From contig NZ_JADKRS010000006.1 in NCBI RefSeq assembly GCF_015351075.1, positions 1 to 64,000 on the forward strand: 64,000 nucleotides of DNA, read 5' to 3'. The first letter of the stretch is position 1; every line of letters starts with the position of its first letter. The translations under genes and the position numbers were made by a program. Under the pieces are notes generated by a model. That model ran no database searches. It saw only the letters and a program-made list of their open reading frames with translations, and had not been told where the DNA came from. This DNA is from Clavibacter sp. VKM Ac-2873. GTDB lineage: Bacteria; Actinomycetota; Actinomycetes; Actinomycetales; Microbacteriaceae. Positions 18,653 through 20,148 of the stretch are shown piece by piece.

Positions 18653-18665
18653 TAGGTTCGAGACA
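18653..18665 (+). promoter_or_regulatory. -10 box 6 nt before the GTPase start (leaderless)
   Basis: TAGGTT at 18653-18658 fits the -10 consensus and leaves 6 bases before the ATG at 18665, with no ribosome binding site. The GTPase mRNA is probably leaderless. Confidence 0.45.
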
Positions 18666-19807
18666 TGGAAACCAAGAAGGTCGCCCGCGAGCAACACATA
18701 GCGGTATTCGGAGAATCGGGCAGCGGTAAGACGGTGCTGGTGTCCTCGTTCTACGGTTCAGCGCTCGAGCCGGCCTTCGCGGATTCGAGCCTCTTTAACA
18801 TCGTTGCCGACGACGTGGGGGACGGTCGCCGTCTGCACCAGAACTACCTCGGGATGAAGAACTCGTCGACCCTGCCCCAATCGACGCGGCAGACCACCTC
18901 ATACGCGTTCTCCATCAAGCGACGGCCGGGTGCGGAAGCCGCCGCCAAGAAGCCCGCGGAGGATCTGCGACTGGTGTGGCACGACTACCCGGGGGAGTGG
19001 TTCGAGTCCGAGCCGCAGGGCGCGACCGAGCGTCAGCGTCGACTAGAGGCGTTCCGAGCGCTGCTCGGCTCGGATGTCGCTCTCGTCCTGGTCGATGCGC
19101 AGCGGTTGATCGACAACGCGGGCGAGGAGGAGCGCTACCTGAAGGCCTTGCTCTCCGGCTTCAGCACGCACCTGATCCGGCTCCGTGACGAGCTCCTGCC
19201 GGATGGGAAGCCGCTGGTGCAGTTCCCGCGGATCTGGTTGATCGCGCTGTCGAAGTCCGACCTCCTCCCCGCGATGGACATCGACGGCTTCCGCGACCTG
19301 ATGACCGAGAAGGCCGCTGCGGAGATGACCGCGCTCGGCAAGGAGATAGCCACCTTCGTCCAGGGATCGGACGCGCTGTCGGTCGGCGAGGACTTCGTCC
19401 TGCTGTCATCGGCGAAGTTCGAGCCCGGGAGGATCGAAGTGGGCAAGCGGACCGGGCTCGATCTCATCCTCCCCATGGCGGCGATGCTGCCCTTCGCGCG
19501 CTTCGTGGTCTGGGCGCAGCGGCAGAAGGCAGGTGGACGGGTGGCGAAACAGCTGCTCGACGGCGCGGGGCCGCTGCTGGTCCTGCTGAGCGCGAAGATC
19601 AAGCTCCCGGGTCGCATCGGTGCTGTCGCAGCGCTCGTGCTCCCTAAGCCTGTCGAGGCGGTGGCCAAGTTGGCAGGCACTCAGCTCCAGGCGTTTCACG
19701 ACCGGGCGGTGGCCAAGCACGACTTCCTGACCGCTGTCCTCACGCAGTTCCAGCTCGACCTGCACCGCGGCGTGAAGAAGAAGGTCCTCATCCGGAGCAA
19801 CCGGTGA
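18665..19807 (+). CDS. TRAFAC-like GTPase, candidate conflict-system NTPase
   Basis: 380-residue P-loop protein. Walker A GESGSGKT is at residues 16-23. A Walker B/G3-like WHDYPGEW has its aspartate near residue 107, and a G4-like ALSKSD motif ends near residue 197. This order fits the TRAFAC GTPase class rather than an ABC or AAA ATPase. The C-terminal part (about 265-340) has hydrophobic stretches that could contact membrane. A small gene overlaps its end by four bases. The base composition is less GC-rich than the flanking core genes, and the locus sits beside a tRNA and nuclease genes. Similar stand-alone GTPases are reported in prokaryotic conflict systems, so a defence role is inferred, not shown. 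Confidence 0.72.
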   Translation: METKKVAREQHIAVFGESGSGKTVLVSSFYGSALEPAFADSSLFNIVADDVGDGRRLHQNYLGMKNSSTLPQSTRQTTSYAFSIKRRPGAEAAAKKPAEDLRLVWHDYPGEWFESEPQGATERQRRLEAFRALLGSDVALVLVDAQRLIDNAGEEERYLKALLSGFSTHLIRLRDELLPDGKPLVQFPRIWLIALSKSDLLPAMDIDGFRDLMTEKAAAEMTALGKEIATFVQGSDALSVGEDFVLLSSAKFEPGRIEVGKRTGLDLILPMAAMLPFARFVVWAQRQKAGGRVAKQLLDGAGPLLVLLSAKIKLPGRIGAVAALVLPKPVEAVAKLAGTQLQAFHDRAVAKHDFLTAVLTQFQLDLHRGVKKKVLIRSNR

Positions 19808-20148
19808 GCTTCATCTGGGTCACCCGCGGCAGGACCTGGGGGTTCCGAGTGCTGCGCACGGCCGGGCTGTCGGACGCCTTCGAGTCGTATGAGACAGCCT
19901 TCGCGGGTGTGGCAGAGGGGCCGGAGGCGTTGATGCGAGTCGGCGATCGCCTCGCCGTCAGGTTCCCCGACCCCGAGGGACGGCGTGACAGGGCGGGTCG
20001 CGTCATCTCCCATGAGTTCGTGTTGCTGCCGCCGTGCGAGGGCACTGTCGTTTCCGTCGAGGCAGCTCGGGACCTCGTCTGGCCGCAGGTCGAGGCCGTC
20101 TTCCGGGGTGCCTGGGACGCGTCTCAAGCACCCGCGGCCGCTCCCTGA
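19804..20148 (+). CDS. Small partner of the GTPase, unknown family
   Basis: 114-residue protein. The ATGs overlap: the start at 19804 lies within the GTPase stop, so the two proteins are translationally coupled and likely act together. The sequence begins with a WVTRGRTWGFRVL strand-rich stretch and has no transmembrane segment, cysteine cluster or known catalytic motif. An accessory, effector or regulatory subunit of the GTPase is the likeliest role. I do not recognise the family. Confidence 0.65.
   Translation: MSFIWVTRGRTWGFRVLRTAGLSDAFESYETAFAGVAEGPEALMRVGDRLAVRFPDPEGRRDRAGRVISHEFVLLPPCEGTVVSVEAARDLVWPQVEAVFRGAWDASQAPAAAP

Follow-up and report, generated by a model that had tools for sequence, protein, structure and literature searches.

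A DO-GTPase2/YcjX-type GTPase gene coupled to a longin-like partner as an accessory unit of Clavibacter sp. VKM Ac-2873, and a homologue of the partner domain in Arthrobacter phages

Two coupled genes within the first 64,000 nucleotides of contig NZ_JADKRS010000006.1 of Clavibacter sp. VKM Ac-2873 (this whole stretch is referred to as the window) were subjected to computational analysis. The first encodes a GTPase of the DO-GTPase2/YcjX type (18665–19807, + strand, 380 amino acids, ATG start) and the second, directly downstream, a small partner that looks like a longin domain in its structural model (19804–20148, + strand, 114 amino acids, GTG start). The pair is an accessory unit, and a domain found in Arthrobacter phages is by sequence a related but altered homologue of the partner. 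The pair is best read as a mobile GTPase switch with its own longin-like regulator, most likely a conflict module that acts against phages or membrane stress, a reading to which we give a probability of about one half.

DO-GTPases are predicted conflict switches, and a two-protein unit spread over 19 named actinobacterial families would be a very simple DO-GTPase switch to study. Longin domains have been known mainly as GTPase platforms of eukaryotes and Asgard archaea. A sporadic bacterial longin in an operon with a GTPase, together with a phage version, would make the action of a regulator on its GTPase directly testable in bacteria, using existing strains and phages.

The gene pair as a linked unit

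An earlier sequence-only reading of this DNA, made from the letters and their open reading frames, had proposed a coupled two-gene TRAFAC-type GTPase module. Both frames were found where it had placed them. The overlap, which it had given as ATGA, reads GTGA: the partner starts with GTG, and this start overlaps the GTPase stop by 4 bases. Genome contigs were searched with the GTPase only, and the best 80 of 155 relatives, together with the window locus and one further locus (G004), formed a set of 82 loci. The partner lies directly downstream of the GTPase, in the same order, in all 82, with the 4-base overlap in 78, a recurrence of order and overlap that exceeds chance and bears out the proposed coupling. 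Three other loci have 26 bases between the genes, with a start codon chosen by us, and the sole large intergenic gap (914 bases) belongs to L051, whose GTPase frame is broken. Pairwise distances of GTPase and partner are correlated (r 0.68, 80 loci), where the highest value in 999 permutations was 0.18.

No recurrent third gene was found, the largest other cluster being shared by 10 of 84 loci, in varying positions. Each locus has a single GTPase; among 83, only L031 and L051 gave two pieces, each a broken frame. In the records of L031, L051 and L175 (genome G680) the GTPase frame is interrupted and the partner frame is open.

The GTPase and its partner

The motifs GESGSGKT (G1, residues 16–23), DYPG (within the Walker B/G3 motif WHDYPGEW, 105–112) and SKSD (G4, 196–199), all noticed in the earlier reading, were confirmed, and a G5-like SSAKF (248–252) was found in addition. 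Invariant positions in 80 aligned GTPases are G16, G19–T23, D107–E111, K197, D199, S248 and A250. The Walker B glutamate E111 (DYPGE), conserved in 80/80, is described as conserved in the DO-GTPase family in PMC7159879. The window protein matches PF19993 (DO-GTPase2) with 31.1 bits, over the cut-off of 27, and all 80 members match it at E≤0.01 (E-values, not scores against the cut-off). For Pfam DUF463 (YcjX) the score is 23.7 bits, under the cut-off of 25, and 10 of the 80 members match at E≤0.01. The structural model has the YcjX fold, with YcjX as its top structural match and a low-confidence stretch at residues 291–331. The protein thus belongs to a named family, of DO-GTPase2/YcjX type; a known housekeeping family, which would have spoken against the earlier reading, is not what we judge this one to be. 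A transmembrane helix in the GTPase was considered and set aside as unconvincing, a 19-residue hydropathy of at least 1.6 being reached in just 24 of 80 members and at varying places.

The AlphaFold model of the partner has a mean pLDDT (predicted local distance difference test) of 93.1 and consists of strands at residues 3–7 and 15–18, a helix at 25–33, strands at 42–46, 49–55 and 69–74, and a helix at 85–104. This order (strand, strand, helix, three strands, helix) is what we take to be the longin order, and the structural matches of the model are mostly longin/roadblock proteins; at the level of modelled structure the partner appears longin-like. Two tryptophans, W5 and W12, are invariant in the bacterial partners (82/82). 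Neither the GTPase profile nor the partner profile found sequence relatives in the PDB.

Distribution, insertion site and mobility

The pair is carried by 2 of 18 genomes of the genus and is thus not a set of core genes kept at the same place in all relatives, the outcome that would have counted against a conflict system. In 15 of the 16 genus genomes that are without it, the flanks are only 50–132 bases apart; in the remaining one (G016) roughly 1.1 kb of different sequence occupies the site. By eye, this other insert (L140, about 352–1472) holds a trypsin-like frame, and the site appears to be a small insertion hotspot. Comparison with the flanks of relatives without the pair places the insertion approximately at 18594–20178, with no target duplication established: flank similarity stops near 18593, restarts near 20172–20193, and stops again shortly after a transfer RNA gene, tRNA-Pro(ggg) (20873–20947), near 20950–21010. 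The tRNA had been pointed out earlier as a neighbour, and it is one, but as a border of the insertion it is ruled out because the flanks resume well before it. The lower GC content ascribed to this stretch was also confirmed, with 66.5% in 18594–20178 against 73.5% in the whole window.

Of 199 Microbacteriaceae genomes searched separately, 12 gave a match, the window's own included; some of these loci appear to come from species already represented in the first search. Eight of the other 11 have GTPases of 50–55% identity, all with an adjacent partner; in G680, one of the eight, a stop interrupts the GTPase frame. Two more (G690 and G750; L177, L178) have GTPases of 38–40% identity with the partner not alongside, and the eleventh match (E 7e-4) was missed by the GTPase profile. 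The pair is therefore present in 9/199 genomes, own included, and the partner stands beside every examined GTPase of at least 49% identity. The genomes of G690 and G750 are small (1.5 and 1.9 Mb). Across 396 genomes of the phylum, the partner profile found the pair in two, again counting its own.

The alignment of 80 GTPases spans 19 named families and about 40 genera. Of the 79 members that have a record, 78 bear the label Actinomycetota and one bears none. Their tree needs 25 changes of host group, compared with 48 when shuffled and a possible minimum of 19. Host taxonomy is thus partly preserved in the tree, which indicates that the pair is old in the phylum and moves only occasionally. The GTPase is also present on three Curtobacterium flaccumfaciens plasmid records of nearly equal length (around 107.9 kb), which may represent a single plasmid type; on a fourth plasmid there is an 18% fragment.

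A counterpart of the partner in phages

A scan of viral_contigs with the partner profile found two contigs (L122, L123). Each encodes, immediately behind the large terminase subunit, a protein whose C-terminal part is the partner domain; a portal gene follows further on in L122. PHROG 38171 (function unassigned) matches residues 5–102 of the window's partner (E 4.5e-11) and, with E 2e-43 and 2e-73, the proteins from L122 and L123. A search of 50,697 phage records (E≤0.01) found the domain only in the Arthrobacter phages Nightmare (two records) and Tokki and in MT835574.1. The Arthrobacter phages concerned are isolated, plaque-forming phages (PMC5679793).

In Nightmare and Tokki the protein is gp8, directly following the terminase. 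Near its start is the motif HYGVKGMKWG, the tag that marks Pfam DUF7211 (the family scan covered L122 and L123). A hydrophobic 19-mer (mean hydropathy >2) comes next, and the partner-like domain follows it (E 5e-30 and 2e-26 by profile, for a search space of 100,000). The BFVD model of Nightmare gp8 was the sole match of the partner model at E≤0.001 (E 3.4e-9, template modelling score 0.86). In the four phage proteins the bacterial W5 and W12 are replaced by H and by R, K or V; kept are R8, G13, F14, Y29, F33, R53, D56, P57, R60, D62, G65, R66, I68, H70 and W93.

All 18 genes read after the terminase in four Arthrobacter phages are tagged (Nightmare 5, Tokki 4, Gordon 4, Breylor17 5), and Gordon and Breylor17 are without the gp8 body, nothing in them matching Nightmare 5374–5919. 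From this, gp8 is one, and an accessory one, of a set of tagged proteins. A profile matched at the tag, phrog_35934, is annotated ‘virion structural protein’, an annotation by which delivery of gp8 with the virion is conceivable. As a side observation, the bodies behind the HYGVKGMKWG-type tag differ across these tagged genes (L124 5301–8261, L125 5270–7773, L166 3237–5646, L167 3237–6189), one being annotated as an acetyltransferase, which gives the appearance of exchangeable cargo proteins behind a common tag.

The GTPase was not found in viral_contigs with two peptide patterns, and the sole lead among phage records was false. This lead, MT835574.1 (L084), was deposited as a bacteriophage and carries the pair; 10 of the 15 genes called in a 16.6-kb stretch of the 86-kb record were read, and the surroundings are of chromosomal type (nadA, CorA, MFS and others), so a phage-borne pair was rejected. 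A NERD/UvrD helicase adjoins the pair in this record.

Comparison with known systems

The DO-GTPase family, longin domains and GTPase-roadblock pairs are already known. Of their combination here and of the phage counterpart, the literature searched on DO-GTPases, PF19993, DUF7211 and roadblock/longin GTPase partners yielded no description, and no work linking longin with bacteriophage, anti-phage or GTPase appeared in the titles and abstract beginnings of the matches listed.

Among the closest described systems is DO-GTPase-GAP1 (Kaur et al. 2020, PMC7159879), which shares a DO-GTPase2 GTPase with the Walker B glutamate, a second gene directly after it and mobility. That paper describes the GAP1-N2 type as mainly from actinobacteria plus a few other phyla, the GAP1 gene as usually downstream of DO-GTPase2 (section 27), and two paralogous GTPases as present in 38% of systems, which is not strictly defining; the words longin, roadblock and YcjX are absent from its main text. 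Unlike that system, the pair has one GTPase, no recurrent further component and a 114-amino-acid longin-like partner. From the stress GTPase YcjX itself, whose structure is solved (6nz4–6nz6), the GTPase differs in its DUF463 score below the cut-off and in being tied to a small partner in Actinomycetota.

Bacterial GTPases with a small roadblock partner of longin-related fold are also known from MglA-MglB and from the conservons (CvnB/CvnD; MfpD/MfpB). These GTPases are small and Ras-like, whereas a 380-amino-acid YcjX-like protein is found here; conservons have four core proteins (CvnA–D), compared with a two-gene insert without a third gene; and the partner follows the longin element order, with no N-terminal helix, unlike the roadblock partners. 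Nightmare and Tokki gp8, in turn, is alike in its homologous C-terminal domain but differs from the partner in the DUF7211-type tag and hydrophobic helix in front, the replaced W5/W12 and the lack of any GTPase found with it.

Proposed function and alternatives

By its intact motifs, the YcjX-like DO-GTPase encoded by the first gene is predicted to bind and hydrolyse GTP. The longin-like partner would bind it as a dedicated regulator or coupling platform, by analogy with MglB, SRX and NPRL2, a role suggested by its fold, the operon coupling and the shared inheritance. No recognised enzyme effector domain was found in either protein, and the output would therefore probably be altered assembly or membrane association of the GTPase, not cleavage of nucleic acid; this is the weakest step. 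The module is accessory, and its neighbours in some hosts are defence or mobile genes. In the two isolated Arthrobacter phages the regulator domain forms part of gp8, which also has the tag and the hydrophobic helix; gp8 would most simply be a mimic that engages and blocks the host GTPase, or alternatively a signal that the system reads. The sporadic presence of the pair and the phage copy of the small partner together point to a part in bacterium–phage conflict, without proving it.

The genes around the pair give mild support to a conflict role. On the Curtobacterium plasmid the pair is flanked by TniQ and AAA-ATPase genes on one side and by a type ISP restriction enzyme on the other, beyond which lie SAVED, CD-NTase and ThiF genes and an integrase. 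A neighbour set of 136 proteins (from 151 usable references of 153 chosen, 15 being excluded for length or near-duplication) was compared with 136 length-matched control proteins, drawn from 225 that were called in 20 stretches elsewhere, with near-copies among these. The 25 largest of 170 Pfam families matched by the neighbours include Mrr_cat (3), SIR2_2 (3), NERD (3), HsdM_N (2), N6_Mtase (2), transposases and resolvases, none of which is among the 25 largest of 196 in the control. This plasmid copy amid defence-type genes, the neighbour families and the phage homologues of the partner are the points in favour of defence. Other results are neutral or speak against it: PADLOC families number 99 in neighbours and 77 in the control, with no clear excess; PADLOC 2.0.0 has no match to the GTPase beyond the P-loop (mad8 18.8 bits, residues 5–36; HerA 11.9 bits, residues 10–77); and it has none to the partner. 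The PADLOC counts were dropped as a measure of enrichment, the kinds of family differing more than their numbers, and ordinary genes are frequent among the neighbours.

A bolder version, which we hold only tentatively and consider rather unlikely as a whole, would make this an immune GTPase with a longin regulator, in parallel to GATOR/Rag and MglA/MglB, whose GTPase is captured by a tagged, membrane-anchored copy from an actinophage, possibly delivered by the virion.

Among the alternatives, the pair could resemble a toxin-antitoxin system, with a free GTPase that is harmful, a partner that keeps it inactive and a phage domain that acts as substitute antitoxin during infection. The accessory two-gene layout with a 4-base overlap and a small second gene would suit this, as would the constant company of the partner at 49% identity and above, the restriction of the phages found to the small component, and the broken GTPase frames beside open partner frames (L031, L051, G680), expected if the GTPase is costly. 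Those frames may, however, be sequencing errors, and the GTPases of 38–40% identity lack the partner, meaning that a GTPase on its own is not necessarily toxic; we consider this explanation unlikely. To the same degree improbable is an envelope-stress module, in which an accessory YcjX analogue would guard the membrane against general stress and the phage link would be incidental. YcjX is indeed the best structural match, and a DO-GTPase with a predicted membrane-stress role is reported from some gammaproteobacterial psp operons (PMC11237479), but the patchy presence in genus and family, the plasmid copy amid defence-type genes and the phage homologues of the partner argue against it.

Somewhat less probable again is a stripped-down DO-GTPase-GAP1 conflict system whose partner is a lone GAP1-N-type domain. 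The second gene does occupy the usual GAP1 position downstream of a DO-GTPase2 (PMC7159879), and by eye a GFRF ... G.D..GR ... H pattern is common to the partner and GAP1-N2. The identification suggested by eye was rejected on profile-profile comparison, first with 6 GAP1-N2 sequences (P 0.29) and then with 34 (probability 1%, P 0.053), neither of which was significant. None of 82 partners matched GAP1-N in Pfam at E≤1, and the GAP1-N2 profile, which recovered 34/34 of its training sequences, found nothing at E≤0.1 when 83 loci were searched in six frames (GAP1-N1, M and C profiles were not searched); FNIII, tubulin, HSP70 and effectors were absent from the 25 largest of the 170 families matched by the neighbours. 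Least probable of all is phage- or element-derived cargo without a defence role, such as maintenance genes, for although plasmid copies, transposase/resolvase neighbours and partner homologues in phages would fit, the GTPase was in no phage found, its viral_contigs scan was empty and the 16.6-kb stretch of MT835574.1 that was read holds chromosomal-type genes.

Other features of the window

The sequence-only reading had also placed a GIY-YIG nuclease and Vsr beside the pair. Vsr was confirmed (22099–22515; TIGR00632, 125.8 bits, cut-off 97.85); the nuclease could be upheld only as a putative GIY-YIG protein (21045–22028, - strand) with a weak Pfam match of 15.8 bits, below the cut-off of 22.6. 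Both lie in a second low-GC stretch (20950–22600), after tRNA-Pro and separate from the pair. Elsewhere in the window, GC falls to 56.5% at 34001–35000, and several frames that we take to be chymotrypsin-like serine proteases stand together at 25137–29973.
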